Part shown: positions 2,277 through 50,748 of the stretch, in pieces
Layout: each line of letters begins with the position of its first letter
Position numbering within the stretch: the stretch's first letter is position 1
From: Modestobacter sp. VKM Ac-2982
Lineage (GTDB): Bacteria > Actinomycetota > Actinomycetes > Mycobacteriales > Geodermatophilaceae
Assembly (NCBI RefSeq): GCF_026967935.1
Contig: NZ_JAPVBL010000005.1
Span: 1 to 64,000, forward strand
DNA length: 64,000 bases
Reading direction: 5' to 3'
Program-made: the position numbers and the translations under genes
Notes under the pieces: generated by a model
The model's input: only the letters and a program-made list of their open reading frames with translations
What the model was told of the DNA's origin: nothing
Databases searched by the model: none

Positions 2277-10627
<8,351 letters not shown>

Positions 10628-34938: not shown

Positions 34939-34945
34939 ATCTGCG

Positions 34946-35010: not shown

Positions 35011-35073
35011 ACCGGCGCGCCCAGGACGGTGCACCGTTCCTCGCGGCGCCCCCGCACGGCCGTCGTCCGGCGA

Positions 35074-35123: not shown

Positions 35124-35224
35124 TCGGTGCGTCGTCCCGCTGTGACGGGTGGGCTCGCCTCCGTGACGGGGGACGTCCTACCGTCGAACGACGCGGTCCC
35201 GATCGACAGGCGGGTGGAGAGACG

Positions 35225-35659: not shown

Positions 35660-35733
35660 CGACCCGGCGAGCCCGTTGCCGGCGCGCGCCGGGAGGCTGG
35701 TGCACGGTCGGGCCGCAGGGCAGGCTGTCGGCC

Positions 35734-35883
35734 GTGGACGAGCAGACCGAGCAGCGGCTGGTGCAGGTGGCGACCGACGAGATGCGGGTGCCGTTCTGGG
35801 TGGTGCTGGCCGGGGTCGGCGTGGGCTCGTTCTGGACGCTGATGGGCGTCCTCGTCGGCACCCGGGTCGCCCGACGGCGCTGA
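35734..35883 (+). CDS. Small single-pass membrane protein
   Basis: 49-residue predicted product with a charged N-terminus (VDEQTEQRLVQVATDEMR), one hydrophobic helix (FWVVLAGVGVGSFWTLMGVLVG) and a basic C-terminus (TRVARRR), which suggests N-out/C-in anchoring. GTG at 35734. Short, but hydrophobicity and codon positions are consistent with a real gene. Confidence 0.5.
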   Translation: MDEQTEQRLVQVATDEMRVPFWVVLAGVGVGSFWTLMGVLVGTRVARRR

Positions 35884-35913
35884 GCTCTCCCCGATCCGTG
35901 CCAGGCTGGTCCG

Positions 35914-36375
35914 GTGTTCGAGGACGGCGGCGAGGTCCTGGCCCTGCTGATCCCGGCGATCGGTGCCGGGGTGGGCGGGCTGTTCGGCCGGCGGCTGCGC
36001 CACCAGCGGCTGCGGCGCCGGATGCGCGAGGGCCGCACCGAGCTGTCCGCGCGCTCCGCGGACGGCTGGGGTCCCTCCCTGTCGCGGAGCTGGCGGACCT
36101 ACCTCGCGACGCCGCGGCTGGGCGAACTGGTCCTGCGTCGCAGGTTCCGGCGCGACGGGGCGGGGCCGGCGGTGACGGTGCTCGCCGTCGACCCGCAGAC
36201 CCGCCGGCCGCAGGTCCGTGAGTGGTGGCGCATGCAGGCGGTGAGGTCCCGGGTGCTGACCGTCCGGACCCCCGAGGGCCGCATCGAGCTCGCCGTCCCC
36301 GAGTACCAGGTGGCCTGGCTGCGGGACCGGCTGGTCGGCCCCGCCGGTCAGGCCGCCGCCCCGGGCGCTCAGTAG
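35914..36375 (+). CDS. Uncharacterised membrane-anchored basic protein
   Basis: 153-residue protein with a single N-terminal hydrophobic segment (about residues 8-26) followed by an Arg-rich stretch and a soluble domain with WWRMQAVRSRVLTVRTPEG near the middle. No family recognised. GTG at 35914. Its end overlaps the convergent VOC gene by seven bases. Confidence 0.6.
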   Translation: MFEDGGEVLALLIPAIGAGVGGLFGRRLRHQRLRRRMREGRTELSARSADGWGPSLSRSWRTYLATPRLGELVLRRRFRRDGAGPAVTVLAVDPQTRRPQVREWWRMQAVRSRVLTVRTPEGRIELAVPEYQVAWLRDRLVGPAGQAAAPGAQ

Positions 36376-36746
36376 CGGGAGATCTCCACCAGGTTGGCGT
36401 CCGGGTCGCGCACGTACACGCTGCGCATCTCCCCGAGCGCCCCCTGCTTGGTCACCGGGCCCACCTCGACGGGCACGCCGTGCGCCGCGAGGTCCTCGCG
36501 CACCTGGTCCAGCGGGTCCTCGGTGACCAGGCAGAAGTCGGCCGTGCCGGTGCCGGCCTGTGCGGCCCGGGGATCGAACTCGGCGCCGCGCACGTGCAGG
36601 TTGATCTTCTGCCGGCCGAACCGCAGCGCCGTCCGCCCCTCGCCGAAGGTCTCCACGGTCATGCCGAGCACCTGCGTGTAGAAGGCGACGGTCCGGTCGA
36701 GGTCGGCCACGGTCAGCACCAGGTGGTCGATCCGGTCGATGCGCAT
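36369..36746 (-). CDS. VOC-superfamily (glyoxalase-domain) protein
   Basis: 125-residue single-domain VOC protein: IDHLVLTVADLDRTVAFYTQVLG at the start and SVYVRDPDANLVEISRY at the end, with metal-ligand His and Glu at the usual positions. It resembles the GLOD5 type of short glyoxalase-like protein. ATG at 36746. It ends the ordinary region; the catabolic cluster begins at 36846. Confidence 0.88.
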   Translation of the reverse strand: MRIDRIDHLVLTVADLDRTVAFYTQVLGMTVETFGEGRTALRFGRQKINLHVRGAEFDPRAAQAGTGTADFCLVTEDPLDQVREDLAAHGVPVEVGPVTKQGALGEMRSVYVRDPDANLVEISRY

Positions 36747-36845
36747 GCGCCGGTCCTACACCCTCGGCAGCACCCCGACGGGAGCGACCCGGCGGTCGCT
36801 GACCGACGGTCGACCAACGATTGCTCCCCGGGCACAGCCGGTGCA

Positions 36846-38342
36846 TCACCCGCCCTGTCGCCGGCGGTGCTGGGCAGTCCGGTAATGCTGCAACAGGTCC
36901 TCCTGGAGTTGCGGGAGGGCAGCAGCCCGCGGGTCCACTGCGGGGAGTCCGGCCTGCCGCGCCCGCAGTTCAGCGACGACAGCCTCCTCGTCGACGCCGA
37001 GGACCGTCCCGTCCCGCAGTACAGGCCGGCCCGCCACCCACAGATGTCGCACCGATGAACTGGTCACCCGGCTGAGGAGCAGGGGCAGGTCGTCCTGACT
37101 CGCCGGCAACACGTCTCGGGTGAGTGCCTCGCGGTCCAACACCACGACATCGGCAGCCGCCCCAGGCTCCAGGCCCCATGGGCCACGCCCGCCATGGACG
37201 GCGCGGGCACCTCCGTCGACCGCTGCCCGGAAGAGCTGCTCGGTCGTCAGCCGGGGGTCGAGACCGTCACCCGCCTGCAGGAGGTACAACAGGCGCAGCT
37301 CTCGGAAGGCATCGCCGTCGTCGTCCAGGGTCGCGCCGTCCAGGCCCATGGCGCAGTCCACGCCTGCGTCGAGGAGCGCACCGACCGGAGCGACCCCCGA
37401 ACGCAGTCGTAGGTTGGAGCTCGTGTTCACCACGACGGTGACGCCGCGCTCCGCCAGCAGAGCGCACTCCTCCGCGCGGAGCCACACCCCGTGGGCGACC
37501 GACAGCCGGGGAGAGAGCAGCCCCAGCCGGTCGAGGTGCGCGAGCAGGCCATCGGGGTGGGCAGCATCGGCCCACTCCCGCTGGCGCCGGGTCTCCAGCA
37601 GGTGCATGTGCACCCGTCGCCCGGTTCGGGCCGATCCCTCGGCGATGGCGGAGATCAGTTCGTCCGATGCCCACTGCGGTCCCAGTGGCCCGTACTGGAC
37701 GGTGACGGTGGGCGACTCATGGGCCGCGGCGATCGAGTCGACGGCGTCCATCAACGCCGGCACCGATGGGACCGCCGTCGGGCGCCAGGGCGGACCCACA
37801 CCGTCGAGGCCTGTCCCGAAACCCGTGCTGCCTGCACCGCCGCACGTGTAGGCGACGTGGTTGCGGTCCTGCAAGGGGACGGCGAAGGCCATGCGCAGGC
37901 CGACGAGTTCGGCGGCGGCGCAGACGTCCGCGGCTTCGTCGACCAGGACGTCCAGGGGGCGAGCGCGGTGCAGGTGCATGGTGCTGGCGACGCCACTGCG
38001 AGCCAGTCGTGTCAGGTAGGCGAGCGCCGTCAAGTGCTGGTCCAGATCAGGCTGCAACGCGAGTGCTGCCAACCAGGTCTCCAGCGGCTGGTCCACGGCA
38101 CCGAAGGTGACCGGCGAGAAGTACCTCCCGTGATCGTGCCCGTTCGCCAGTGCGGGCAGGAGAAGTGATCCGCGGCCGGCGTCGAAGCGTTGGAAGGCCA
38201 CATCCCCCGCCGCCACGGACACCTCCGCACCGTCCAGGAGCACGGTCGGCGAGGTGCGGACCGCATCGCGCCCCGGTGCCAGGAGCCCCCGCTCCGCCGT
38301 GATCGACCAGGTGCGCGGCGCCGGTCCCGATGCGCCGCTCAC
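36846..38342 (-). CDS. TRZ/ATZ-family amidohydrolase (divergent)
   Basis: 498-residue amidohydrolase-superfamily protein, probably deaminating or dechlorinating an N-heterocycle. Metal ligands are visible as HxH in LANGHDHGRY, His in VHMHLLETRR, His in SVAHGVWL and an Asp in the MGLDGATLDDDGD segment. The first motif (usually NxHxH after PGL/PGF) and the last (usually GTDxxxS) are atypical, so the substrate may be unusual. GTG at 38342 overlaps the stop of the next amidohydrolase (GTGA). Last gene of the minus arm. Confidence 0.88.
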   Translation of the reverse strand: MSGASGPAPRTWSITAERGLLAPGRDAVRTSPTVLLDGAEVSVAAGDVAFQRFDAGRGSLLLPALANGHDHGRYFSPVTFGAVDQPLETWLAALALQPDLDQHLTALAYLTRLARSGVASTMHLHRARPLDVLVDEAADVCAAAELVGLRMAFAVPLQDRNHVAYTCGGAGSTGFGTGLDGVGPPWRPTAVPSVPALMDAVDSIAAAHESPTVTVQYGPLGPQWASDELISAIAEGSARTGRRVHMHLLETRRQREWADAAHPDGLLAHLDRLGLLSPRLSVAHGVWLRAEECALLAERGVTVVVNTSSNLRLRSGVAPVGALLDAGVDCAMGLDGATLDDDGDAFRELRLLYLLQAGDGLDPRLTTEQLFRAAVDGGARAVHGGRGPWGLEPGAAADVVVLDREALTRDVLPASQDDLPLLLSRVTSSSVRHLWVAGRPVLRDGTVLGVDEEAVVAELRARQAGLPAVDPRAAALPQLQEDLLQHYRTAQHRRRQGG

Positions 38343-39748
38343 CACGTGAGCCCCGCTCGGGTGACGATGCGTTCGGAGCGCTGTTGCGCGTCTCGGCACA
38401 ACGCACGTTCCTCCTGCGCGGTCAGGAACGTGAGCACCCGATCGCGCATGAGCACCCTCCCGTCGACGATCACCGTGTCGACCTCCGCACCGCCGGCCTG
38501 GAAGACCAGGCTGGTGACGACGTCGTGAACCGGGGTGGTCCGGACACCGCCGAGATCGAGCAGGACGAGGTCGGCCCGCTTGCCCACCTCCAGCGATCCG
38601 ATGAGGTCCCCGGCACCGATGGCCCGGGCTCCTGCGCTGGTGGCCATCTCCAGCACCCGACCCGGCGGGATGACCGCCGGGTCCTGGTTCACCGCCTGCT
38701 GGAGCAGCGCCAGCATGCGCATCTCGACGAAGAGGTTCACCGAGTCGTTGGCGTTCGCGTCGTCCGTGCCGATCCCCACGGTCAGCCCGTGGCGCAGCAT
38801 GGCTGGCACCGGGGCGACACCGGCACCGAGATAGGCGTTGCTCGATGGCTGTGTCGCCACGCGCACCCCGCGGGCCGCCATGGTCGACAGGTCCTGGTCG
38901 TCCAGGTGCACACAGTGGGCGGCCAGCAGCGCTCCGTCGAGCAGGCCGTGGGAGTCGAGCAGGTCGACCGGGCTGCGCCCGTGCAGCTCCTGCTCGATCG
39001 GCGTCTCCGCGAGGTGGATGGTCCAGCTGGTGCCTCGTTCGGCGGCCAATCGCTGTGCGGCGGCGAAGGTCTCCAAGGTCGTGGTGACGGTGGTCGCCGG
39101 CGCGGGCCAGACCTCCACCCGCCCGTTGCCCGAGCCGTGGTGGCGCCGCACCAGCTCGTCGAACTCCGCCAGCGCACGAGCCGAGTCGTGCCGGCCGGCC
39201 CAGGTGCGCTCACGCATGCGCTCCAGGTCCCGGGAACCGCTGGCGGCGAGGACCCGGTCGTCGACCAGGTCCCTGATCATCCGGGCATAGCGCACCCGAA
39301 GACCCGACTGCCGGAGGGAACCGAGCACCCGGTCTGCCACGCCGAGGTAGTCCGCGCCACCGGCGTCCTCGTTGACCACGACGGTGGTCATGCCGCTGCG
39401 CACCGCTTCCACGCAGTAGAGGAGCGTGGCCACCTCCAGGTCCTGCGGGGAGAAGGCGGCCAGCCCCGGGGACAGCACGTTGTTGAGCCAGTCCTGCAGG
39501 CGTCGCCCCTGCGAGGGCGCGCCGCGCAGGAGGATCTGCGGCACGTGGGTGTGCGCGTTGACCAACCCCGGCAGGGCGAGCATCCCCCGTCCGTCGAGAC
39601 GGACGACCCCCTCCGCAGCCGGGCAGCCCTCCGCGGGCCCCACGTAGGCGAGGGTGTCGTCCTCGATGAGCACCGCGGCGTGCGGGACGACGCTGCGCTG
39701 CTCGTCCATCGTCAGCACCGTGACGTCACTGATCAGCGTGGCGCTCAC
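38339..39748 (-). CDS. TRZ/ATZ-family amidohydrolase (MtaD/guanine-deaminase-like)
   Basis: 469-residue hydrolase with canonical motifs: PGLVNAHTHVPQ, IHLAETPIEQ, AAHCVHLDDQD and GTDDANANDSVN, followed by a C-terminal beta domain (GSLEVGKRADLVLLD). This set occurs in adenosine/SAH, guanine, 8-oxoguanine and triazine aminohydrolases; I cannot pick among them. GTG at 39748 overlaps the stop of the molybdenum subunit gene, implying stepwise action after hydroxylation. Confidence 0.9.
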   Translation of the reverse strand: MSATLISDVTVLTMDEQRSVVPHAAVLIEDDTLAYVGPAEGCPAAEGVVRLDGRGMLALPGLVNAHTHVPQILLRGAPSQGRRLQDWLNNVLSPGLAAFSPQDLEVATLLYCVEAVRSGMTTVVVNEDAGGADYLGVADRVLGSLRQSGLRVRYARMIRDLVDDRVLAASGSRDLERMRERTWAGRHDSARALAEFDELVRRHHGSGNGRVEVWPAPATTVTTTLETFAAAQRLAAERGTSWTIHLAETPIEQELHGRSPVDLLDSHGLLDGALLAAHCVHLDDQDLSTMAARGVRVATQPSSNAYLGAGVAPVPAMLRHGLTVGIGTDDANANDSVNLFVEMRMLALLQQAVNQDPAVIPPGRVLEMATSAGARAIGAGDLIGSLEVGKRADLVLLDLGGVRTTPVHDVVTSLVFQAGGAEVDTVIVDGRVLMRDRVLTFLTAQEERALCRDAQQRSERIVTRAGLTW

Positions 39749-41955
39749 GCCCGCACCCCCTCCGTCTGCCGAGCGTCCAGCGCAGCCAGCAAGCGCTCGG
39801 GGTGCATCGGCAACGACCTCACTCGCACACCGGTCGCATCCGCGACGGCGTTGGCGATCGCCGGGGCCATGCCCATCACCGGTGCCTCACCCAGCCCCTT
39901 GGCCCCGGTCGGGCTGTGTGGGTGCGGCACCGTCACGAAGACGACATCCACCTCCGGCGCGTCCGCCACCGTCGGCAGCAGGTGGTCGAGGAAGGTCCCG
40001 CGGAACGGGACGCCCTGCTCGTCACGGGCCAGGCGTTCGGTCACCGTCGTCCCCACCCCCTGGACCACGCCACCGACCACCTGACCGGTGGCCAACGTGC
40101 GGTGCAGGACACGACCGACGTCGTGCACGGAGACCACCCGGGTGACCCGGACGACCCCCGTGGCCGTGTCGACGACGATCTCGGCGACCTGTGCGCCGGC
40201 GCACAGGGCGTTGTCCGGCGCCCGGAACGCCGCGTCGGCGGCCAGGGGCGCCAGGTCGGCCAGCGGGATGCGGTCGGCGCCCGATCCCGCCCACGAGCCG
40301 GTGACCTCGACATCGGTGGCCGCGCAGCCGGTCCGCTCGACCACGGCCTGCACGATCCGGTCGAGCAGGCCGCGCGCCGCCAGGACGACGGCGCCGGCGG
40401 TGACGTAGGCGCCCCGGGCGCCGTACGCACCGGGATCCTCCGGCGCCGTAGCCGTCGACGGTTGGTCGACGCGCACGTCTTCCACGGCCACCCCGAGAGC
40501 CTCAGCCGCCACCACCGCGAACGCGGTGTGGTTGCCCTGTCCGATCTCGGTGGAACCGGTCTCGACGACCAGGGCACCGTCGAGGGTCAGCCGGCAGCGG
40601 GCAGATGCACCATCGGGCGGGCCGGTGCGCCGGGTCTTGCTGGAGGTGTCCAGCAGCAGGGCGATGCCACGGCCGGTGCGCCACCGTCCTGGTGGGCCGT
40701 TCGGCACCGTCGGGGCCGGCCAGGCCTCCGACCGCCGCACCGCCTCGCGCAGGCATGCCTCGGCGCTGAACGTGAGCACCGGCCAGGCGTGCAGCGGGTC
40801 CGACGCACCCTGACGCAGGACGTTGCGGGAACGGATCACCACCCGGTCGTGCCCGAGTGCGTCGGCGATCTCGTCTATCTGGCTCTCCACCGCGAACAGC
40901 GTCTCGGTGCCGCCGTACCCGCGGAAGCCGGTCGCCGGGGTGGTCGCGCTGAGGGTGGCCCGGCCCACCGACCGCGAGACCGGGGCGGGGTAGAGGACGA
41001 GGGCCCGGGCGGCACCGGCGGCGGCGACGTCCGGACTGTGCCCGGAATAGCCACCGGCGTCGAGCTCCAGGACGACGTCGCGGACGAGCAGAACCCCGTC
41101 GTCGTCGACGCCGGTGCGCAGGGTGACCGAGGCGCCGTGCCGCACGCGGAAGCGTCCGTTGGTCATCGACCGGGTGATCTCCAGCAGCACCGGCCTCCCC
41201 CCGGCGGCACGTGAGAGCAGCGCTGCCGCCGGTTCGAACTGGATCTCCTCCTTGCCACCGAAGCCACCTCCGACGTAGACCGGCTCCAGCACCACGTCCG
41301 CGGCTGTCAGCGAGAGAATCCGGGCGACCCTGGCCGCGACCGGCCCCGGCACCTGCGTGGTCGACCAGATCCGGCACGGCGAGCCGTCCCCGGCCCACTG
41401 GGCGGCGGCGCAGGGCCGCTCGAGGTACCCGTGCGGCGCTGCGTCCACGGTGTAGGTGGCGGTGAACACGTGCGGTGCGGCCAGCAATGCCCGCTCGACC
41501 GTGTCTGCGTCGTCGCCGTAGCAGACCTCCCCCACCAGGGGGTCCAGCGCCGAGCCGTCGCCCGCCCCGGCCGGTTGCTCCGCAGCGCGGGGCGTGACCA
41601 CGACGAGCGCCAGGGCCGCCTCGAGCGCTGCCCTGGTCTCCGCCACCACGGCGCCGACGACGTCCCCGACGAACCGCGGCTGGGACGTGAAGACGAGCGT
41701 GTCGAGCACCGTGCCGTGCGGGTTCGGGCACCACAGCACCCCAGGGTCGTCCGGGGGTCCCAGGGCCGCGACCACGCCGGTCACCGCCTCGGCGGCGGTC
41801 AGGTCGACCGAGACGGGCCCGACGACGGGTGACTCGACGACCCCACCGAACAGGTGCGGCTGCGGCACCGCGTCCGCGGCGTACGGCGCCCGCCCGGCGA
41901 CCTTGCGCGCGCCCTCGAGACGGCGTGGAGCGGCGGCAGCGACCGTCGCCCTCAC
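39745..41955 (-). CDS. Molybdenum hydroxylase large subunit (xanthine-dehydrogenase/CoxL type)
   Basis: 736-residue molybdopterin-binding subunit. Visible features: the N-terminal a/b hammerhead (KVAGRAPYAAD), pterin/Mo contacts GGGFGGKEE and GFRGYGGTE, GQGNHT, and the catalytic Glu in GAKGLGEAP near the C-terminus. It would hydroxylate a carbon next to a ring nitrogen. GTG at 41955 overlaps the iron-sulfur subunit stop by four bases. It is close to xanthine dehydrogenases rather than to CO dehydrogenase (no AYxCSFR loop seen). Confidence 0.92.
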   Translation of the reverse strand: MRATVAAAAPRRLEGARKVAGRAPYAADAVPQPHLFGGVVESPVVGPVSVDLTAAEAVTGVVAALGPPDDPGVLWCPNPHGTVLDTLVFTSQPRFVGDVVGAVVAETRAALEAALALVVVTPRAAEQPAGAGDGSALDPLVGEVCYGDDADTVERALLAAPHVFTATYTVDAAPHGYLERPCAAAQWAGDGSPCRIWSTTQVPGPVAARVARILSLTAADVVLEPVYVGGGFGGKEEIQFEPAAALLSRAAGGRPVLLEITRSMTNGRFRVRHGASVTLRTGVDDDGVLLVRDVVLELDAGGYSGHSPDVAAAGAARALVLYPAPVSRSVGRATLSATTPATGFRGYGGTETLFAVESQIDEIADALGHDRVVIRSRNVLRQGASDPLHAWPVLTFSAEACLREAVRRSEAWPAPTVPNGPPGRWRTGRGIALLLDTSSKTRRTGPPDGASARCRLTLDGALVVETGSTEIGQGNHTAFAVVAAEALGVAVEDVRVDQPSTATAPEDPGAYGARGAYVTAGAVVLAARGLLDRIVQAVVERTGCAATDVEVTGSWAGSGADRIPLADLAPLAADAAFRAPDNALCAGAQVAEIVVDTATGVVRVTRVVSVHDVGRVLHRTLATGQVVGGVVQGVGTTVTERLARDEQGVPFRGTFLDHLLPTVADAPEVDVVFVTVPHPHSPTGAKGLGEAPVMGMAPAIANAVADATGVRVRSLPMHPERLLAALDARQTEGVRA

Positions 41956-42434
41956 GAGTCGTCCCGCCCGGTGGCGACGTCGTCGCGGGCCGCCAGCACC
42001 GCGCTGACGATGGCCGCGTAGCCCGTGCACCGGCAGGCGTGACCGACCAGCGCTGCCCGCACCTGCTCGGGCGTGACGCTGCCGCCACGCAGCAGCGCCG
42101 TCATCGTCGCGGCGATCCCAGGCGTGCAGAAGCCGCACTGCAGGCCCCCGGCCGCGACCAGCTGCTGGGCGAGTGCGCTGCCGGGCCCTGTCGCCGTGAA
42201 GGCCGGTGCGGTGTCCACCCGTCCTCCGTCCACCAGCCCGCAGTGCACCAGGCAGCTCGGTACGGGCTCGTCGTCGAGCAGCACGGTGCAGGCACCGCAG
42301 GCACCCTCCTCGCAGCCCACCTTGACGGTGCGCTCGCCGACGTCGTCGCGCAGCCACTGCGAGAGCCGTCGGGACATGGCTGCGGGATCGAGCCGATGCC
42401 GGACGCCGTTGACGACGACGCCGTCCCCGGTCAC
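41952..42434 (-). CDS. Molybdenum hydroxylase [2Fe-2S] subunit
   Basis: 160-residue electron-transfer subunit with both clusters: plant-type ferredoxin motif CEEGACGAC plus SCLVHC, and the helical domain cysteines in CGFCTPG and CRCTGY. GTG at 42434 overlaps the stop of the FAD subunit. Length and motif spacing are normal for CoxS/XdhA-type small subunits. Confidence 0.96.
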   Translation of the reverse strand: MTGDGVVVNGVRHRLDPAAMSRRLSQWLRDDVGERTVKVGCEEGACGACTVLLDDEPVPSCLVHCGLVDGGRVDTAPAFTATGPGSALAQQLVAAGGLQCGFCTPGIAATMTALLRGGSVTPEQVRAALVGHACRCTGYAAIVSAVLAARDDVATGRDDS

Positions 42435-43180
42435 GACAGCGCCTCGACGACCTCGTCGGCGAGCACCGAGAGCAATCGCGACCGGTACAGCGCCGATGCC
42501 CGGTCGTCGTCGAGCAACTGGTCGGGGCCGGGCAACTCCCCCGGCGTGAAGAGGAGTGGCATGGGCGCGCAGGCACCGGCGCAGAGCAGCACCCGGCCCT
42601 CCCGATCGATGACGCCAGCGACCGTGGCGAGCGCCGGCGCGGGTCCGTGTCGGCCGGCGATCCGCCGGTAGGCGCCGCGAGCGGGCGCGCCCAGGTCGAG
42701 GCCGGTGACGAGATGCGGGCCGAGCGTCGCGGCCTGCGCCAGGTACTCGAGGTAGGGCAGCCGGGCCGGGCCGGGCCGGACCCCCGTCTCCAGCAGCACC
42801 ACGGCTGCGTGGACGGCGAGCGGGGCGGCCAGGTCGGCCGTCGGGATGCGGCCGGCGACGGTGCCGCCGATGGTCGCGATCCGCCGGATGCCCGGGTTGG
42901 CGGTGAGTCCAGCGGCCTGTGCCACGGCGGGCCAGCCGGCGAGGAGGGCCGGGTCAGCGGCCAGGGAGGCGATCGTCGCGCCTGCGCCGACCACGGGGGG
43001 TGTGCTCCCGGCGTCCACCGCTGCCCGCAGGTCCACCACCGCGCTGCCTGCCGAGTGCGGGAAGGCCCGCGACAGGAGCGCAGCACCGCCGCCGACGGGG
43101 GTCGCACCGTGGCGGAGCAGCTCGACGGCCTCCGCCCGGGACCGCGGAGCGTGCCACGCCGGGCTCCAGGATGGGTTCAT
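42431..43180 (-). CDS. Molybdenum hydroxylase FAD subunit
   Basis: 249-residue FAD-binding subunit (CoxM/XdhB type): PVGGGAALLSR and RIATIGGTVAGRIPTAD contact FAD, and a C-terminal CO-dehydrogenase flavoprotein C domain follows. It is somewhat shorter than the usual 270-290 residues. ATG at 43180; a TATGTT -10 ends six bases upstream and no Shine-Dalgarno is present, so the transcript appears leaderless. First gene of the minus arm. Confidence 0.92.
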   Translation of the reverse strand: MNPSWSPAWHAPRSRAEAVELLRHGATPVGGGAALLSRAFPHSAGSAVVDLRAAVDAGSTPPVVGAGATIASLAADPALLAGWPAVAQAAGLTANPGIRRIATIGGTVAGRIPTADLAAPLAVHAAVVLLETGVRPGPARLPYLEYLAQAATLGPHLVTGLDLGAPARGAYRRIAGRHGPAPALATVAGVIDREGRVLLCAGACAPMPLLFTPGELPGPDQLLDDDRASALYRSRLLSVLADEVVEALS

Positions 43181-43186
43181 CGGCGC

Positions 43187-43216
43187 AACATATGTGCAGT
43201 TCCCGGAATGGCGCAA
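43187..43216 (-). promoter_or_regulatory. Promoter of the molybdenum hydroxylase operon
   Basis: On the minus strand TTGCGC (43216-43211) and TATGTT (43192-43187) are 18 bases apart, the -10 lying six bases before the ATG. The 211-base divergent region 43181-43391 is clearly richer in A+T than its surroundings. Confidence 0.55.
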
Positions 43217-43323
43217 GCCTCGGTCCGTCGCCTGGTCGGTCCCCCTCTGCGAACGATTCGGAATTGCATCGGACGGTCAGGTTTTACGGTCATTCCTCAC
43301 GACGGAAACGTGACCGACACACA

Positions 43324-43344
43324 TGCTGCACACTGTATGCAGCA
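43324..43344. promoter_or_regulatory. Palindromic operator candidate in the divergent region
   Basis: TGCTGCA-C-AC-T-GT-A-TGCAGCA is a 21-base palindrome with a single mismatched pair, located 48 bases before the solute-binding-protein start and between the two divergent arms. It is a plausible site for the GntR/FCD regulator encoded at 48677-49411. Confidence 0.5.
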
Positions 43345-43391
43345 GCTGGCTGTCGTCACTCGATGCGACCCATGATGCGGAAGGCAACCCC

Positions 43392-44381
43392 ATGCACACC
43401 ACGTCCACTGCGCGCCGTCGCGGCCCACGGATCGTCGCGGCAGCCCTCCTCGCGACCACGCTGGCAGCGTGCTCGAGCGACCCGGCCGACACCTCCGAGG
43501 AGGCCGCCGGCGGCGAGACGAGCCTCCTGCGGGTCGCCCAGTCAACGCCCGCCGAGTGGGTCCAGCCCGTGCTCGCCGCCGAGGAGGGGACGTTCGGAGA
43601 GCACGACCTCGAGGTGGAGATGACGGAGTTCCCCAGCGGCAGGGACGCCCTCCAGGCACTCACCGGAGGAGCCGTGGAGATCGCCATGGTCACCCCGTCC
43701 AACGTCGCCCCTGCGGTGATGGGCGGCCAGGACATCGTGGTCTTCGGCGTGGCGTCCCGCTGGGGGTCCTGGCGACTGGTGGCCCGCGACGACCGCGGCA
43801 TCGCCGAACCGTCTGACCTACGGGGCAAGACCATCGGGGTGCCCACCGGGACCAGCGCCGACCAGAGCCTCGACGTCCTGTTGACGGAGAACGGGCTGTC
43901 CCGGGAAGACGTCGAGGTCGTCAACGTCGCCGCCCCCGACGTCATCCCGGCGCTCGAGAGCGGCTCGGTCGATGCCATCAACATCTGGCAGCCGAACCTG
44001 TCGGTGCTCGAGGAGGCCGTGCCGGACTCGGTGTCCCTGCCCTTCGACATGCCCAGCAGCTTCCTGTTCGCGACCAGCCGCGAGTTCGCCGAGGAGAACG
44101 AGGACCTGCTCCTCGCTTTCATGGAGGCGAACCAGGCAAACGACTCGCTCATCAACGACGACCGGGAACGCGCACTGGACATCATGGTGGCACCGTCCCG
44201 AATTGATCGGGAAATCCTCTCGACCATTTGGGAGGACTTCGACTTCGAGACGAGCGAGCCGGATTCAGAAATCATCAGCCAGCTCGACGAGGCTGCCCAG
44301 TTCGCGATCGACAATGGCTCCCAGCCGGGGCCTGCCCCGGATTTCGACGCCCAGGTCATGAGCGTGGGTCTCGGTGGCTAG
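43392..44381 (+). CDS. ABC transporter solute-binding lipoprotein (NMT1/SsuA-like)
   Basis: 329-residue exported lipoprotein: basic start, hydrophobic stretch and lipobox LAAC (Cys near residue 27), then a periplasmic-binding fold resembling SsuA/TauA/NMT1 proteins (LRGKTIGVPTGTSADQSLD, SGSVDAINIWQPN). These bind small organic nitrogen or sulfur compounds. ATG at 43392. Several stretches near its 3' end use A/T-ending codons unlike the flanking genes. First gene of the plus arm. Confidence 0.92.
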   Translation: MHTTSTARRRGPRIVAAALLATTLAACSSDPADTSEEAAGGETSLLRVAQSTPAEWVQPVLAAEEGTFGEHDLEVEMTEFPSGRDALQALTGGAVEIAMVTPSNVAPAVMGGQDIVVFGVASRWGSWRLVARDDRGIAEPSDLRGKTIGVPTGTSADQSLDVLLTENGLSREDVEVVNVAAPDVIPALESGSVDAINIWQPNLSVLEEAVPDSVSLPFDMPSSFLFATSREFAEENEDLLLAFMEANQANDSLINDDRERALDIMVAPSRIDREILSTIWEDFDFETSEPDSEIISQLDEAAQFAIDNGSQPGPAPDFDAQVMSVGLGG

Positions 44382-45189
44382 CGCGGTCGCGTCGGCACGC
44401 CCGCAGGCGGGTCCGGACGAGCGGCGCCGGCTGACCCCGCCGGTGCGGCTCCCCTCCTGGCTGCTCCCGATCGGCTCGCTCACCGTGACGGTGGCCGTCT
44501 GGGAACTGGTGGTGACGACCGGTCTGGTCTCGGCCCGGGACGCACCTCCCCCGAGCGCCGTGCTGGCGGCCGGGCTGGACCTCCTGCAGGCGGGCACGCT
44601 GGTGAACGACGTCCTGATCAGTGGGCGTCGGGCGCTGACGGCCTACGTCGTGGGGAGCGCGCTCGCCATCGCAGTGGCGCTGTTCACCGGTCGGTCACGG
44701 GTGGTCCGGGGGCTGCTCGAACCGACGCTGCAGATCCTCCGGCCCATCCCCGCACTTGCCTGGGTGCCGTTCAGCATCCTCTGGTTCGGCATCGGCGAGG
44801 GCCAGAAGCTCTTCGTCATCGCCCTCGGCGTCTTCTTCCCGGTCTGGCTCAACACCCATCTGGGCGTCGCCGGTACGCCGCTGCGCTACCTCAACGTCGC
44901 CCGCACGTTGGGGGCCAACCGACGGGACCTCTTCTTCCGGGTCAGCCTGCCGGCCGCACTGCCGTTCGCGGTGGCCGGGCTGCGCCAGGGGATCGCGCTG
45001 GCCTTCCTCCTGCTCGTCGCCGCCGAGCTCACCGGGGCCAGCACGGGCCTGGGGGCGCTGATCGCCCAGTCACACCTGCTGTTCCGGGCCGATCGGATGG
45101 TGGTCGGACTGATCCTCCTGGGGCTCATCGGCGCCGCCGTCGACTTCCTCTTCTCGCGTGCCGCCCGCCGCCTCGTCCCCTGGAGCTGA
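44374..45189 (+). CDS. ABC transporter permease (SsuC/TauC-like)
   Basis: 271-residue inner-membrane permease with about six helices and the EAA loop ([24 protein letters not shown]), which contacts the ATPase. GTG at 44374 overlaps the binding-protein stop by eight bases. It works with the lipoprotein before it and the ATPase after it. Confidence 0.93.
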
Positions 45190-45194
45190 AGCCG

Positions 45195-46052
45195 ATGTCC
45201 CGCAACACCACCGCACCACCGCCCCCCCGGTCCGACGCCGCGACGCCGGACCAGTCGGTGTCCACGGAGGCACCGCTGCTCCAGGTCCGTGACCTGCGGC
45301 TCAGCTTCCAGACCCGGGAGCGTCAGGTCGACGCCGTCACTGACGTCTCACTGGACGTCCAGCGCGGGCGCACCCTCTGCCTGCTGGGCCCCTCCGGCTG
45401 CGGGAAGTCCAGTGTGCTCAACGCGATCGCCGGCTTCCTGACGCCCAGCCAGGGCGAGGTGCTGGTGGCCTCCCGGCTCGTCGACGGTCCAGGCCCCGAC
45501 CGCGGGATGGTCTTCCAGGACCTGGCTCTCTACCCCTGGCACAACATCCAGCGCAACGTCGAATTCGGCCTGCGCCACCTGCTGCCCACCCGGGCAGAGC
45601 GACACGAGCGAGCGCGCTCCTGGATCGATCGGGTGCGGCTGACCGGGCACGAGAGCAAGCGGGTCAACGAGCTGTCCGGCGGCATGGCACAGCGGGTGGC
45701 CATCGCCCGGTGCCTGGCAGCCGAGCCGTCCGTGGTGCTGATGGACGAGCCGTTCGCGGCACTGGATGCCCACACCCGGATCAACATGCAGGAACTCCTC
45801 GCGCAGCTGGTGGCCGACTACGGGATGACGGTGGTCTTCGTCACCCACGACATCGACGAGGCGCTGATCGTGGGCGACGCGGTCGCCGTCATGGGTGGTG
45901 CACCCGGACGCATCGTGGAGTCCTTCGAGAACCCCTTCGCGCGTCCCCGCTCGCACCTGGTGTACCGGCAGCCGGGATACGGAGAGGTCAAGGCCAGGAT
46001 CTTCGACCTCATCGGCGGGCACCACGACACCGATCGACCGAACCAGGAGTGA
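45195..46052 (+). CDS. ABC transporter ATP-binding protein (SsuB/TauB-like)
   Basis: 285-residue ATPase with Walker [11 protein letters not shown]-loop [12 protein letters not shown], signature [13 protein letters not shown], Walker B VVLMDEPF and switch His in FVTHDIDEA. The N-terminal 25 residues are a Pro/Ser-rich extension. ATG at 45195, five bases after the permease stop. Confidence 0.95.
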
Positions 46053-46057
46053 CCACC

Positions 46058-47413
46058 ATGTTGGACATGCTCGTCAGCGGCGGGACGATCGTCTCGCCCA
46101 GAGGTCGCGTCCGCGCCGACCTCGGTGTCAAGAACGGCCGGGTGGTCTCCGTCGGGGAGGACCTGGGCGAGGCCCGGGAGCACGTCGACGCCGCCGGGCT
46201 GCACGTCCTGCCCGGCCTGATCGACGTGCACGTGCACTTCCGCGACCCCGGGATGACCGCCAAGGAGGACTTCGGCTCCGGCAGCACCGCTGCCGCGGTC
46301 GGCGGCGTCACCACCGTGTTCGACATGCCCAACACCGACCCCCCGGTCTCCACCGCGGAGCGGTGGCGCGCCAAGTACGAGGTCGTCGCCCCCAAGGCCC
46401 GGGTCGATTTCGGCTTGTACGGCGTCGTCACCCAGGACAACGGCGCTGAGCTCACCGCCATGGCGGACGAGGGCGCGATGGGCTTCAAGCTGTTCATGGG
46501 CCAGACGACCGGGGACAACCCCTGCCCAGACGACGGGGTCATCTTCGCCGCCTTCCGGACGGCGGCCACGCTCGGACTGACCATCGGCGCACACGCCGAG
46601 AACAACGCCGTCCTGCAGCTGCTCAAGCGGGAGCTGAGGGCGGCCGGGCGGACCGACCCGCGCGCCCATCTGGAGTCGCGTCCGGCCTTCATCGAGGCCG
46701 AGGCGGTGTCCCGCGCGGCGACCCTGGCCGCCGCGGCGGGCAACCACCTGCACATCCACCACCTCTCCACCCGTGAGGGGCTCCAGCGGGTGGTGCAGGC
46801 GCGGGCACTGGGCACGCGCATCAGCTGCGAGGCGCTGATCGGTCATCTGCTCTTGGACGACGCCGCGTACGAGTCGCAGGGCAACCTCGTCCAGCTCAAC
46901 CCACCGATCCGCCCGGCTGAGCACGTGCAGGCGCTGTGGGAGGGGATCGCGGCGCGGACGATCGACTGCATCGCCACCGACCACGCCCCGCACACCGGGG
47001 AGGAGCAGGCCTGCACCGACGTGTGGTCCGCGGTCGGCGGCTTCATCGGCGTGGAGACCCTGCTGCCACTGCTGCTGACCCAGGTGGCCGCCGGACGCCT
47101 CGAGCTGGAGCAGCTGGTGCAGCTGACCAGCGCCGGGCCGGCCGCCATCTACGGCGCATCACCTCAGAAGGGCTCCCTCGACCTGGGCGCCGACGCGGAT
47201 TTCGTCCTGGTCGACACCCAGCGCACCGCCGTCATCAGCGGCCAGCAGCTCCACTCCGCGCACCCCGTGACGCCGTACGAGGGCTGGCAGGCCACCGGGA
47301 TGCCGGTCGCCACCTACCTCCGCGGCCAGTGCGTCGCCAGGGACGGGGTCCCCGTCGGGGACCCGCGCGGTCGCCTGGTGAAGCCGCGCCGCGTGCACCG
47401 GGCCACGGCGTGA
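46058..47413 (+). CDS. Cyclic amidohydrolase (dihydroorotase/allantoinase/hydantoinase group)
   Basis: 451-residue metal-dependent ring-opening hydrolase: PGLIDVHVHFRDPG, the carboxylatable Lys in GFKLFMGQ, HAENN, HIHHLSTREG and CIATDHAPHT supply the binuclear site. It groups with dihydroorotases and allantoinases; its place beside a molybdenum hydroxylase and importer suggests it opens a ring formed from the imported heterocycle. ATG at 46058 has AGGAG eight bases upstream. Confidence 0.92.
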   Translation: MLDMLVSGGTIVSPRGRVRADLGVKNGRVVSVGEDLGEAREHVDAAGLHVLPGLIDVHVHFRDPGMTAKEDFGSGSTAAAVGGVTTVFDMPNTDPPVSTAERWRAKYEVVAPKARVDFGLYGVVTQDNGAELTAMADEGAMGFKLFMGQTTGDNPCPDDGVIFAAFRTAATLGLTIGAHAENNAVLQLLKRELRAAGRTDPRAHLESRPAFIEAEAVSRAATLAAAAGNHLHIHHLSTREGLQRVVQARALGTRISCEALIGHLLLDDAAYESQGNLVQLNPPIRPAEHVQALWEGIAARTIDCIATDHAPHTGEEQACTDVWSAVGGFIGVETLLPLLLTQVAAGRLELEQLVQLTSAGPAAIYGASPQKGSLDLGADADFVLVDTQRTAVISGQQLHSAHPVTPYEGWQATGMPVATYLRGQCVARDGVPVGDPRGRLVKPRRVHRATA

Positions 47414-48249
47414 CCGCGGCAACTGGGCGGGCCGGCTTCCGGTCGGTGAGCGAGGCGGCCGTCGCGGCGTTCCTCCGCGACGAGGTGCCGTGGCAACTGA
47501 CCCGTCCGCACGTACCGTGCATCGGCGGTATCGGCACGGTCGCTCCCGATGCGGTGCGCAGCCCGCTCCTGACTCAGCAGCTGGAGGACCGGGGCGTCGA
47601 GGCGTGGCGCACCCTCGTCGCCGACGGTCCCGACGAGCTCGCGGCGCAGCCCACGTGGAACCTGGCCATGGTGCTCAGCCCGTACAAGCAGGAGGTCACC
47701 GGCCTGTGCGACGCACTGACGCCGGCAGCTCGCGCAACCGGCGTCGTCGACACACTGCGCCGGGGTGACGGTGGTGTGCTCGGGTGCAACACCAACAGCA
47801 CAGCGGCGGCAGCCGCAGTGAGCGTGCTGGTCGGCGGCGACCTCCCCGAGCGGGTGCTCATCGCCGGCACGGGCGCGTCCACCCGCTCCCTGGTCGCCGG
47901 TCTGCGCGACCGCTACCCCGCTGCCCGGATCGGGGTCTGGGGGCGATCCCTGCTGAAGTCGACTGCCCTGTCAGCGGAGATGCTCTCCGTCGAAGTCGTG
48001 CCGGAGCCCGCGGGATGGGACGCCGACCTGGTCGTCAACGCGACGACCGTCGGGCAGACGGCCGAACCGGTGCCACCGCGGTTCCCGCTGCTGGACGCGC
48101 TGCGGCCCGGTGTGCGGTTCTTCGACCTCAACAACCGCAGCGGTGCGCTTCAACAGGCTGCTGTCTCTGCGGGGTGTGTCACCGTCGGCGGCGTGATGAT
48201 GCAGCGGGTGACGAACGCGCTCCGCGTGGGGTTGCTGGTGGGGAGATGA
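47410..48249 (+). CDS. Shikimate-dehydrogenase-like protein with altered active site
   Basis: 279-residue protein aligning with AroE along its length: VLSPYKQEVTGLCDAL (AroE NVTxPxK, Lys kept), GVLGCNTNST (AroE GxNTDG), AGTGASTRSL (GxGGAxRA) and VNATTVGQ. The catalytic Asp of the NTD motif is Asn here, and the dinucleotide loop is unusual. It therefore probably does not reduce dehydroshikimate and may act on a ring-opened intermediate. GTG at 47410 overlaps the previous stop (GTGA). Confidence 0.85.
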   Translation: MTAATGRAGFRSVSEAAVAAFLRDEVPWQLTRPHVPCIGGIGTVAPDAVRSPLLTQQLEDRGVEAWRTLVADGPDELAAQPTWNLAMVLSPYKQEVTGLCDALTPAARATGVVDTLRRGDGGVLGCNTNSTAAAAAVSVLVGGDLPERVLIAGTGASTRSLVAGLRDRYPAARIGVWGRSLLKSTALSAEMLSVEVVPEPAGWDADLVVNATTVGQTAEPVPPRFPLLDALRPGVRFFDLNNRSGALQQAAVSAGCVTVGGVMMQRVTNALRVGLLVGR

Positions 48250-48680
48250 CTGAACATCATGACCACGTGGAGAGCCGGACTCTGATGTTCCTCAACGGCA
48301 CGGCGATGAGCGGTGGAGCCGACCACGAGCGGATCTCCGGGGCGACGTTCGTGGGCCCGGCCCGGACCGCGTCCAGGTATCGCTTCTATTCCGTTCGGGA
48401 CGAGTTCCCCGGGCTGGTGGCGTCGGACGAGGGAAGCGCGATCATCGGCGAGGTGTACGCCATCGACGACGAGGTGTGGCGCGAGTCGCTGTTGCCGAGC
48501 GAGCCGTCGGAACTGGATCCGGGCGAGATCCAGCTCGAGGACGGCCGTCGTGTCCGCGCGATGATCCTGGACCTCACCCGGGTGCCCGACGAGGACCTCG
48601 TCGACATCACCGAGCACGGCGGATGGCGCAAGTACCTGGCCAGCCTGCCCGGTCAGGCAGCTGCCTCGAGGACGTCGTGA
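48246..48680 (+). CDS. GGCT-like / allophanate-hydrolase-C-terminal-like protein
   Basis: 144-residue protein with the gamma-glutamylcyclotransferase-type fold signature: LMFLNGTAMSGG, FVGPARTASRYRFYSV and IIGEVYAIDDEVW. The closest resemblance is to the C-terminal domain of allophanate hydrolase, which decarboxylates N-carboxyurea-type products, and to stand-alone relatives in urea and purine catabolic clusters. ATG at 48246 overlaps the previous stop (ATGA). Confidence 0.8.
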   Translation: MTEHHDHVESRTLMFLNGTAMSGGADHERISGATFVGPARTASRYRFYSVRDEFPGLVASDEGSAIIGEVYAIDDEVWRESLLPSEPSELDPGEIQLEDGRRVRAMILDLTRVPDEDLVDITEHGGWRKYLASLPGQAAASRTS

Positions 48681-49411
48681 CCGGGTCGGCGGAGCCGGCC
48701 AGGAGGGCGACCGGGCTCGCCGGGCTCGCCGGGCTCGCGGAACGGCGACAGCTGTCCAGCGAGCACGTCTACCGGCAACTGCGGCACGCGCTGCTGACGC
48801 AGCGGATCAGCGCAGGCACGCGGTTGGTGGAGACGGACATCGCCCAGCGACTACAGGTGAGCCGGACGCCCGTCCGGGAGGCCCTGGGGCGACTGGAGAG
48901 CGAGGGTTTCGCTCAGCGCGCGGTTGGTGGTGGTCTCGTCTCCGCGGACTTCGGCCCGGAGGAGATCGCCGACATCTTCCTGGTGCGCGCCCAGTTCGAC
49001 CAGCTGGCCGCCCGGTTGGCCTGCGAGCGCGCGAAACCGGGCCAGTGGGCTGAACCACGCCAACTGCTCGAGTTGATGCGGACGACCATCGAGCGGCACG
49101 GAGTTGCGTCCCCGGAGTTCAGTGAGGTCCACGAGTCCCTGCACGCCTCCATCTACCGGATCGCCTTCAGCTCTCGTATGGCCGGGTGGATCGAGAACCA
49201 CCTGCGCTTCCCCCTCGAGGTGTCCGCCGAACTCAGCTACGGCAACGAAGCGCCTGCCGAACCACCGTACGAGCAGCACTGCCGTCTGATCGACGCACTC
49301 TCCAGCGGGGACGCCGGACTGGCTGTCGCAGCGGCTGCGGAACACTGCAACCGCGGGGCCGCCGACGCTGACCGGAGCAGACGCATCCAAGGAGAGCTAC
49401 CGGCCTCCTGA
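48677..49411 (+). CDS. GntR-family regulator, FCD subfamily
   Basis: 244-residue regulator: N-terminal winged helix (HVYRQLRHALLTQRISAG, VSRTPVREALGRLESEGF) and an all-helical FCD ligand domain with metal-binding His candidates (EVHESLHASIYRIAF, AAEHCNRG). FCD members usually sense a carboxylic acid. GTG at 48677 overlaps the preceding stop. As last gene of the plus arm it most likely controls the whole divergent cluster. Confidence 0.92.
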   Translation: MTGSAEPARRATGLAGLAGLAERRQLSSEHVYRQLRHALLTQRISAGTRLVETDIAQRLQVSRTPVREALGRLESEGFAQRAVGGGLVSADFGPEEIADIFLVRAQFDQLAARLACERAKPGQWAEPRQLLELMRTTIERHGVASPEFSEVHESLHASIYRIAFSSRMAGWIENHLRFPLEVSAELSYGNEAPAEPPYEQHCRLIDALSSGDAGLAVAAAAEHCNRGAADADRSRRIQGELPAS

Positions 49412-49440
49412 CCGCGCAGCTGCGCCCTCGACGAACTCCT

Positions 49441-49475
49441 GTGGTGGAGGACAGGACCGCCATCAGCTCCACCAC
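49441..49475 (+). terminator. Possible terminator after the catabolic cluster
   Basis: GTGGTGGAG (49441-49449) pairs perfectly with CTCCACCAC (49467-49475) around a 17-base loop, 30 bases past the GntR stop. The rest of 49412-49604 shows nothing further. Confidence 0.45.
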
Positions 49476-49604
49476 CCAGGTCGGCCCACGCCGTCCGGTT
49501 CGCCTGCCCGAGACTCGTTCGACCGCATGGTCGATGCGTGAACGCGATCGGGCGGCGTGGGGACCGGTCCTGGTCGTGCTCGAGCAAAGGCGGGGCTGAG
49601 ATGA

Positions 49605-50042
49605 TCAGTCCCACCGGCCGCGCAGCCGCTTGGTCTCCCCGCGCTGCTTCTTCGCGGTGATCCGCCGTTCCTTGGAGCCGCGGGTCGGCTTGGTCTTCCG
49701 CCGGGCCGCCGGCGGGGGCGCGATCGCCCCGCGGAGGAGCGCGGCCAGCCTCGCCCGGGCGGCCTCCCGGTTGCGCAGCTGCTGCCGGTGCTCGCTGGCG
49801 GCGATGGTCAGCACGCCGTCGACCAGCCGGTCGCCGAGCCGCTCGACCAGCCGCCGCCGCTGGGTCTCGGTGAGCCCGGGCAGCTCCAGCGGCGACACCG
49901 CCAGCTCCACCCGGGAGTCGGCGGTGTTCACCCCCTGCCCACCAGGCCCCGAGGACCGGGAGAACCGCCACGACAGCGCCCCGGCCGGGACGACCAAGCG
50001 GTCACTCACCGGCAGGTCGCCGAACGCATCGTCTCCAGCCAC
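49605..50042 (-). CDS. arfB: Peptidyl-tRNA hydrolase ArfB (ribosome rescue)
   Basis: 145-residue class I release-factor-like hydrolase: the GGQ loop is in RSSGPGGQGVNTADSRVEL, and the basic C-terminal tail (ARRKTKPTRGSKERRITAKK) enters the mRNA channel of stalled ribosomes. GTG at 50042. Length is typical. Confidence 0.95.
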   Translation of the reverse strand: MAGDDAFGDLPVSDRLVVPAGALSWRFSRSSGPGGQGVNTADSRVELAVSPLELPGLTETQRRRLVERLGDRLVDGVLTIAASEHRQQLRNREAARARLAALLRGAIAPPPAARRKTKPTRGSKERRITAKKQRGETKRLRGRWD

Positions 50043-50110
50043 GTCGCCCAGTCTCCCGGACGGCGGACGCCGCCACGACCGAGTTCCCGCTCCGGTGCCA
50101 GACTCGGGCG

Positions 50111-50605
50111 GTGCCGACCCGCCGCCTCGTGCTCGTCCGCCACGCCGAGGCGGGCTCCGCCGCCGTCGACGCCGACCGCCCCCTCACCGACGCAGGCGCC
50201 CACCGGGCCACCGCGATCGGCGTCTGGCTCGCCGACAACGGGGTGGCACCGGCGCGGGCGCTGGTCTCCCCCGCCCGCCGGACGGTCCAGACCTGGGAGC
50301 GGGCCGGCGGGGTGACGCCCGTCCTGGACCCGCGGGTCCAGGGCAACACGGTCGAGGCGCTGTTGCAGGTCGTGCGCGAGACCCCCGACGAGGTGGACCA
50401 GCTGGCGGTCGTCGGCCACAACCCGTCGATCAGCGTGCTCGCCGCGCTGCTCGACGACGGGCAGGGGGACGACGCGGCCCGGAGCGGCTCCGCGAGCGGG
50501 TTCCCGGCCGGCGGGGTGGCCGTCCTCGACCTGAGCACGCCGTTCGCCGCCGTCGGCCCCGGCAGCGCACGGCTGTCCGCGTTCGCGGTCCCGGGCAGCG
50601 ACTGA
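50111..50605 (+). CDS. sixA: Histidine phosphatase, SixA type
   Basis: 164-residue small histidine phosphatase: catalytic RHAE in LVLVRHAEAGS, RPLTDAGAHRA, SPARRTVQTWE and the second His in VVGHNPSIS. SixA relatives dephosphorylate phosphohistidine proteins. GTG at 50111. It is divergent from arfB. Confidence 0.88.
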   Translation: MPTRRLVLVRHAEAGSAAVDADRPLTDAGAHRATAIGVWLADNGVAPARALVSPARRTVQTWERAGGVTPVLDPRVQGNTVEALLQVVRETPDEVDQLAVVGHNPSISVLAALLDDGQGDDAARSGSASGFPAGGVAVLDLSTPFAAVGPGSARLSAFAVPGSD

Positions 50606-50664
50606 GCGTCACAGGGGGCCACCGGTCGGGTGAACGACCCGGTCCGAGGGGCGCCGCCACCGGC

Positions 50665-50690
50665 ACCGGGCGACCCGGTTGTCGCCCGGT
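50665..50690 (+). terminator. Terminator after sixA
   Basis: ACCGGGCGAC (50665-50674) pairs perfectly with GTCGCCCGGT (50681-50690) around a six-base loop, 60 bases past the sixA stop and before the next gene. Confidence 0.6.
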
Positions 50691-50748
50691 CGGCTGAAGC
50701 CCACCGACTCACCTGGCCGGGTCGGTCACCGGGTGTGACGCTGAGCGG

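Follow-up and report, generated by a model that had tools for sequence, protein, structure and literature searches.

Two recurring gene modules joined in a putative island for N-heterocycle catabolism in Modestobacter sp. VKM Ac-2982

The subtype III amidohydrolases AtzA and TriA differ in specificity. Noor et al. 2012 (PMC3387218) found residues at sites 84, 328 and 331 to be decisive for this difference and proposed Cys331 of TriA as a proton donor; with the few informative sequences then at hand, they could not tell which of the two enzymes is the ancestral one. Pterin deaminases exist in soil bacteria, as in folate deamination by Variovorax (PMC9513972), and NMT1/TauA-type genes occur in purine operons (PMC7373994). 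Here we describe a locus of 12 genes that encodes a relative of AtzA and TriA, at positions 36846-49411 of a window of 64,000 nucleotides (positions 1 to 64,000 of contig NZ_JAPVBL010000005.1) from Modestobacter sp. VKM Ac-2982. The locus joins two gene modules that also occur apart in other genomes, and we lean towards reading it as an acquired island for an aminated pyrimidine-type N-heterocycle (with a single or fused ring, for example a pteridine) that lies outside the standard purine route.

A first-pass annotation, made from the DNA alone, had described the locus as two tightly packed divergent operons. All 12 open reading frames (ORFs) are present, and searches against Pfam and NCBIfam agree with the families it had named (Amidohydro_1 three times, MoCoBD/Fer2/FAD_binding_5, an NMT1 substrate-binding protein, AH_C and GntR-FCD). 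The minus-strand operon consists of five genes. These encode an amidohydrolase-superfamily protein of the TRZ/ATZ type (36846..38399; PF01979, 98 bits), whose true start is probably downstream of the ORF start; an AtzA/TriA-related amidohydrolase that is a probable aminoheterocycle deaminase (38339..39748; AtzA structure PDB 4v1x, E = 5.7e-122); and the molybdenum (39745..42000; MoCoBD_1, MoCoBD_2, Ald_Xan_dh_C), [2Fe-2S] (41952..42434; Fer2, Fer2_2) and FAD subunits (42431..43216; FAD_binding_5, with only the N-terminal FAD domain detected) of a xanthine dehydrogenase (XDH)-type enzyme, all three of its subunits being encoded here. The plus-strand operon comprises seven genes, namely the substrate-binding lipoprotein of an ABC importer of the NMT1/SsuA type (43392..44381; PF09084, 85.5 bits), an ABC permease (44374..45189), an ABC ATPase (45195..46052), a cyclic amidohydrolase of the hydantoinase/dihydroorotase-like type (46055..47413; PF01979), an AroE-like NAD(P)-type oxidoreductase (47425..48249), a free allophanate-hydrolase C-terminal domain protein of the GGCT-like fold family (AH_C, 48249..48680; PF21986, 95.2 bits, cut-off 27) and a GntR-FCD transcriptional regulator (48680..49411; PF00392, PF07729). 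Adjacent genes overlap or are at most 11 bp apart, the exception being the divergent spacer of 175 bp. We use TrzB and AllB as convenience labels for the first and the cyclic amidohydrolase, respectively. The names of the permease and the ATPase rest on the translated sequences and on similarity to transporters of relatives (a BPD_transp_1 permease of locus L082 and others; ABC ATPases at 38-40% identity), the other proteins having been scanned with the profile libraries. For the lipoprotein, a start at 43392, read from the sequence, is likelier than the earlier call at 43323.

A search for the gene set in other genomes, which the first-pass annotation had proposed as a check, found that it recurs, as two modules. 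The large genome searches scored about four candidates per genome, and misses are possible. The first module is centred on AllB, whose homologues match in six of 393 other genomes of the class (E ≤ 1e-100) and in two of 396 other genomes of the order (E ≤ 1e-120), one being shared; none of these matches comes from the host's own genus or family. Together with a metagenome-assembled genome of Rubrobacter (G381) that entered the set via the AroE-like search, eight distant genomes carry a close AllB (59-62% identity): G832, G863, G847, G935 and G824, all of one family (f104), G992, G1032 and G381. The AroE-like gene lies directly downstream of AllB in all eight, and an FCD gene adjoining it and then AH_C follow in six, whereas the window has AH_C before FCD. 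The contig of G847 ends after the AroE-like gene, and in G381 (L030 539-1986) the AroE-like frame is truncated next to an ORF that on visual inspection resembles a recombinase, a possible insertion into the module. The ABC ATPase is matched in five and TrzB in three of the eight genomes. The operon of family f104 (L066) consists of genes for a substrate-binding protein, TrzB, an ATPase, an ORF with no Pfam match, an M20-type amidohydrolase, an aldehyde dehydrogenase, AllB, the AroE-like protein, FCD and AH_C. In G992 the additional genes encode an acetamidase/formamidase and a cytosine-deaminase-like protein, and genes for an aldehyde dehydrogenase and a class III aminotransferase lie close by; G1032 has a minimal unit (importer, AllB, AroE-like, FCD, AH_C) with transposase and integrase genes beyond AH_C.

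The second module pairs XDH with the AtzA-like protein. The latter is matched in three of 199 other genomes of the order (E ≤ 1e-60) and in one of 393 other genomes of the class (E ≤ 1e-75), namely G832, which is also one of the six of 393 with the core, although the two draws of 393 genomes are perhaps not identical. In G832 a contig separate from that of the core (L082) bears genes for an ABC permease and ATPase, the XDH trio closest to that of the window among those found (43-51% identity) and the AtzA-like gene (9163-10539), which sits at the contig end with genes for a Rieske oxygenase alpha subunit, a two-domain glyoxalase/dioxygenase-superfamily protein and a further glyoxalase-like protein. 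In plasmids, 693 records matched the AtzA-like protein, the best listed being AtzA copies (about 44%) and haloarchaeal proteins (36-40%). The AtzA-like gene lies among purine genes in all four haloarchaeal plasmid loci that were read, three of them with XDH adjoining, and in both of two family relatives it adjoins XDH together with a PucR regulator. XDH is beside the AtzA-like gene in six of ten loci other than the window; it was not seen in the stretches read of the 8.7 kb contig of G551 (L046), of Pantoea (L038), of Salinigranum (L083) and of pADP-1 (3.4 kb). Because its parts recur together in other genomes, the gene set is more than a chance juxtaposition.

The AtzA-like protein is 44.2% identical to AtzA of pADP-1 over its whole length and is the sister of AtzA in two trees (support 0.984 with 17 sequences and 98 with 13), grouping with AtzA and not with 8-oxoguanine deaminase or 5'-deoxyadenosine deaminase; the homologues of G832 and G551 are placed weakly (37 and 53). 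All five metal ligands (H66, H68, H243, H276, D327) are kept. At sites 84, 328 and 331, read as tip residues of extant sequences only, the protein has Leu, Asp and Ala: the AtzA triad F84/N328/S331 is not matched, two of the three TriA residues are present (L84, D328), and A331 is as in neither enzyme. Lacking the Cys proposed as proton donor, the protein may differ in its chemistry or leaving group. The homologue of G832 (42% identity to AtzA by BLASTP) has the full TriA triad L84/D328/C331, which suggests that active sites of the deaminase type are not confined to the herbicide-era enzymes. Leu occupies site 84 in all 12 aligned sequences apart from AtzA. At site 328 the window, G832 and G551 share Asp, four haloarchaeal sequences have Asn and five others Gly; at site 331 the window has Ala, G832 Cys and G551 Thr. 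AtzA position 125 was dropped as a comparison site, as two alignments placed it differently.

The XDH-type enzyme scores below the cut-offs of curated equivalogs (XdhA_XDHase, 419.5 vs 780; pucD, 255.4 vs 783.65). Its molybdenum subunit forms one clade with that of G832 (support 1.000, 43.1% identity) and has 27-29% identity to eight other molybdenum subunits. Among ten aligned molybdenum subunits, the Glu of the GG.(K/R)E motif (GGKE) is confined to those of the window and G832 and to PucD of the same genome; it presumably corresponds to the purine-orienting residue of xanthine oxidase. TrzB also conserves the counterparts of the five AtzA metal ligands (H66, H68, H243, H276 and D327), and is 41-44% identical to proteins adjoining AllB-like genes on plasmids of Skermanella and Azospirillum. 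Its scores on SsnA models are 79-82 bits (81.8 vs a cut-off of 444), no better than on many other models. Judged by family, TrzB may be a second deaminase or a cyclic-amidine hydrolase.

Given the purine-gene and XDH context of the clade, an oxidised aminopurine-like or pteridine-like substrate would, by analogy, be reasonable for the AtzA-like proteins, but ordinary purines are already served in the host. The same genome has, above family cut-offs, uricase and OHCU decarboxylase (C1) as well as urease, allantoinase, allantoicase, a PucD-type XDH and 8-oxoguanine deaminase (C8). A 105-aa ORF between uricase and OHCU decarboxylase, the expected place of HIU hydrolase, gave no match at 1e-40. 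The scanned island genes contain no uricase, OHCU decarboxylase, HIU hydrolase or allantoicase, as the first-pass annotation had noted; its claim of a dedicated N-heterocycle route apart from standard purine catabolism is strengthened, since the location of the standard genes elsewhere makes the island probably a separate pathway.

AllB scores just under the cut-off of the allantoinase equivalog TIGR03178 (350.4 vs 357.85) and above that of the dihydroorotase subfamily pyrC_multi, TIGR00857 (341.6 vs 279.05). An allantoinase function is rejected, as the score is below the cut-off and the host has an allantoinase of its own (564.2 bits on TIGR03178). A role as housekeeping dihydroorotase is improbable, as a separate dihydroorotase at C10:130580 reaches 423.6 bits on TIGR00857, so that AllB is probably not needed for pyrimidine synthesis. 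The Arg after the HxH motif and the Asn in MPNT, presumably substrate-carboxylate ligands in dihydroorotases, are kept in all nine aligned sequences (window, L063-L068, L050, L051), unlike in the genome's own allantoinase.

No Pfam family matches the AroE-like protein at 0.001, and its match to TIGR00507 of NCBIfam is weak (48.7 bits vs a cut-off of 200.2). In all nine members of its family the Asp of the NTD motif is replaced by Asn (NTN) and the Lys is kept; we assume these Lys and Asp residues to have their active-site roles in AroE. Genuine AroE proteins have the Asp in all five sequences read in frame, out of eight presumed genuine ones, three of which were left out. On score and motif a shikimate dehydrogenase is rejected. 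By its residues the protein is assigned to a family distinct from shikimate dehydrogenase, with an altered active-site motif. Among 111 other genomes of the bacterial family, 23 gave matches at E ≤ 0.001 (best 1.9e-9, 29-38% identity), and the four aligned in frame (L010, L011, L014, L017) are genuine AroE by motif; no member of the AroE-like family was found in these 111 genomes, four of the 23 weak matches having been checked for the motif. A plasmid search with the window protein gave only two distant annotated shikimate dehydrogenases. A profile scan of genome contigs with a two-row alignment gave one locus, that of the Rubrobacter assembly, because the peptide patterns are narrow.

AH_C is the C domain alone, with no amidase domain, and hence not a two-domain allophanate hydrolase; its nearest solved structures are PDB 5c5z and then allophanate hydrolases. 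A free AH_C is also found on the E. coli plasmid pLH50-c-A (L054 2435-9648), where it is annotated as glutamyl-tRNA amidotransferase and lies beside genes for FdrA, DUF1116, DUF2877, carbamate kinase, a cysteine hydrolase and a cytosine permease. We take this gene set to be oxamate-carbamoyltransferase-like; by analogy the context fits a role of AH_C in ureide breakdown, and is no proof of it.

The G+C content of the island is below that of its flanks, as had been noted (71.9% vs 74.6% in the rest of the window). The median G+C at third codon positions (GC3) is 0.89 in island ORFs and 0.96 in the 44 ORFs that were called mechanically in the remainder of the window (p = 1.9e-6, Mann-Whitney test), and is low in both operon halves. 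The GC3 contrast and the sporadic occurrence suggest that the island was acquired horizontally, and the low GC3 together with the failure to find the AroE-like family in the 111 other family genomes makes this probable; no mobile element was identified at the island borders.

As to regulation, the divergent spacer contains an inverted repeat (43324..43344; 10-nt arms, 90% complementary, 1 nt between) as a candidate operator. Two related core loci carry a TGGATCCA palindrome that precedes the ATPase ORF by about 45-52 bp (L068, 6435; L080, 15318); it is a possible FCD operator and is missing from the window. A shared operator was rejected: for the TTGGATCCAA-type sites that precede the ATPase gene in L068 and L080, a search of the window gave no match with up to two mismatches. 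RNA switch scans gave one sub-threshold match in positions 34000-51000 of the window (p27_CRE, 22.5 bits vs 42) and none at gathering scores in six related loci, and therefore lend no support to a xanthine (NMT1-motif) riboswitch.

We infer the reactions, their order and the class of substrate from the gene content, the family placements, the conserved metal ligands, the recurrence of the two modules and the separate purine route. The importer would take up a ring compound, which the XDH-type enzyme would hydroxylate at a ring carbon adjoining nitrogen. The AtzA-like protein and TrzB would remove ring amino groups hydrolytically, with opening of a cyclic amidine as an alternative for TrzB. AllB would then hydrolyse a CO-NH bond of the oxo ring to give a ureido acid, and AH_C, with an amidase encoded elsewhere, would break down the ureido or carbamate part, in analogy with allophanate hydrolase. 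The AroE-like protein may oxidise or reduce a carboxylated intermediate, a step that has no firm place in the order, and the FCD protein would control the divergent promoters. The order of hydroxylation, deamination and ring opening in the first-pass annotation is thus plausible, while its release of carbamate or ammonia is still a conjecture. The M20, aldehyde dehydrogenase, acetamidase/formamidase and cytosine-deaminase-like genes of relatives count in favour of an aminated pyrimidine-type substrate, as further genes of ring and amide breakdown, and so does the substrate-binding protein of a relative, whose nearest match is the pyrimidine-binding protein 3ix1 (5e-23). Several observations weigh against it. 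The M20, aldehyde dehydrogenase and acetamidase/formamidase (FmdA) genes are absent from the cluster of the window; the nearest solved structures of AllB are L-hydantoinase 1gkr and allantoinases, not dihydroorotase, and did not settle its substrate; those of the substrate-binding protein are taurine- or sulfonate-binding, with the pyrimidine-binding 3ix1 at only 2e-4. A close XDH/AtzA-like pair is present in just one of the eight core genomes, G832 (G992 has an XDH of 33% identity on another contig), so that the modules could belong to separate pathways. The scheme also leaves the electron balance and the AroE-like step unaccounted for. As a matter of judgement only, a pteridine- or purine-like bicycle and a monocyclic aminopyrimidine are equally possible and neither is probable, some other class is a weaker candidate, and a triazine, which had been among the substrates proposed, is highly improbable: kinship with AtzA is its one argument, and the AtzA-specific residues are absent. 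A more specific version of the proposal is tentative, namely that AllB, the AroE-like protein and AH_C form an undescribed ring-opening core, fed here by XDH and a wild AtzA/TriA-clade deaminase of an oxidised aminoheterocycle, e.g. a pteridine.

The island might instead be an accessory purine route, in which XDH and the AtzA-like protein form urate or xanthine from guanine or one of its modified forms, ureide products being handled by the other enzymes. The haloarchaeal and family loci described above, and the GGKE Glu common to the genome's own PucD, agree with such a route; it is nevertheless unlikely, as the host already has a sufficiently complete set of enzymes (PucD-type XDH, 8-oxoguanine deaminase, uricase, allantoinase, allantoicase and urease), the core lacks XDH or the AtzA-like protein in most genomes found, and the XDH of the window groups with that of G832, away from those of purine clusters. 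We give no greater probability to the pyrimidine of thiamine (HMP) or another 5-substituted aminopyrimidine, degraded by deamination, side-chain oxidation to a carboxylate, opening of the ring by hydrolysis and release of an amide. The importer protein of a relative is nearest to the formylaminopyrimidine-binding protein 3ix1 (5e-23) and also to THI5, aldehyde dehydrogenase and acetamidase/formamidase family genes lie in or near the operons of relatives, and the Arg/Asn pair of AllB would suit a carboxylate; the substrate-binding protein of the window, however, is not close to 3ix1, its cluster has neither of the two enzyme genes, and no matching cluster for the catabolism of thiamine pyrimidine or pterin was found in the open-licence PubMed Central literature.

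It is quite improbable that the island encodes an aerobic relative of reductive urate degradation, with the AroE-like protein dearomatising the ring and TrzB and AllB corresponding to SsnA and HyuA. We know of no AroE-type enzyme that acts as a dearomatising reductase, and the SsnA scores of TrzB do not stand out. The logic is the same, with an XDH homologue, ring cleavage by the amidohydrolase superfamily, hydantoinase-type opening and M20 in relatives (PMC12507026); the scanned cluster genes have no homologue of YgfK/UacX, YgeW/UacY, YgeY or YgeX. No more probable is a mere adjacency of two unrelated catabolic modules with different regulators. Most genomes found have the core alone, and haloarchaeal and other family genomes have XDH and the AtzA-like protein alone, as this would predict, but the halves share a single divergent spacer and a low GC3, and G832, the sole AtzA-like match of the class, also bears the core. 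We retain the aminated pyrimidine-type heterocycle as our working interpretation of the island.

The immediate neighbours of the island are ordinary. On one side (29825-35250) lie nitrogen-assimilation genes, a nitrite reductase NirB above the cut-off and an assimilatory nitrate reductase-like gene; on the other is an ArfB gene at 49605.

Compared with known systems, the island appears to be an undescribed, recurring pair of modules built from known enzyme families. A matching characterised cluster with a known substrate, which the first-pass annotation had named as a refutation, was not found in the searches of open-licence PubMed Central papers. The published pathways closest in logic, reductive urate degradation (PMC12507026) and lumichrome catabolism (PMC12746152), do not match the island gene set, and neither do the systems of PMC9513972 and PMC7373994. 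Uncharacterised clusters on Skermanella and Azospirillum plasmids (L050, L051, L086) share an NMT1-type ABC importer, TrzB (41-44%) and an AllB-like protein (43-48%), but have an SDR in place of the AroE-like protein, as well as acetamidase/formamidase and DUF3830, and no XDH, AtzA-like protein or AH_C was seen in them; L050 adds a ring-opening amidohydrolase of the AtzD/TrzD type. The reductive urate pathway of E. coli and C. difficile (PMC12507026) is alike in the features named above; the island differs by the missing Ygf/Yge homologues and by its AtzA relative, AroE-like protein and AH_C. The lumichrome (riboflavin) route of Nocardioides simplex (PMC12746152) is likewise an actinobacterial pathway for a vitamin ring, with several hydrolases and a xanthine-oxidase-like step (LumJ). 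Its cluster has a P450, a Rieske protein, a catechol dioxygenase and a thiamin-dependent decarboxylase, none of which is in the cluster of the window, a comparison made by gene content; the XDH and AtzA-like locus of G832 does have Rieske and two-domain glyoxalase/dioxygenase-superfamily genes.

If our interpretation is true, the locus represents a recurring catabolic module with a new AroE-like enzyme family, and provides wild AtzA/TriA relatives with their genomic context. The sequences of the window, G832, G551 and the haloarchaeal loci are of the kind that Noor et al. (PMC3387218) lacked. The AtzA-like protein of the window resembles AtzA and TriA in identity over the whole length (44%), metal ligands and position as sister in the trees, and differs from them by combining TriA-like L84 and D328 with an A331 found in neither; unlike that of AtzA, its gene lies with XDH on what seems to be a chromosomal-scale contig set, and not beside atzB and atzC.

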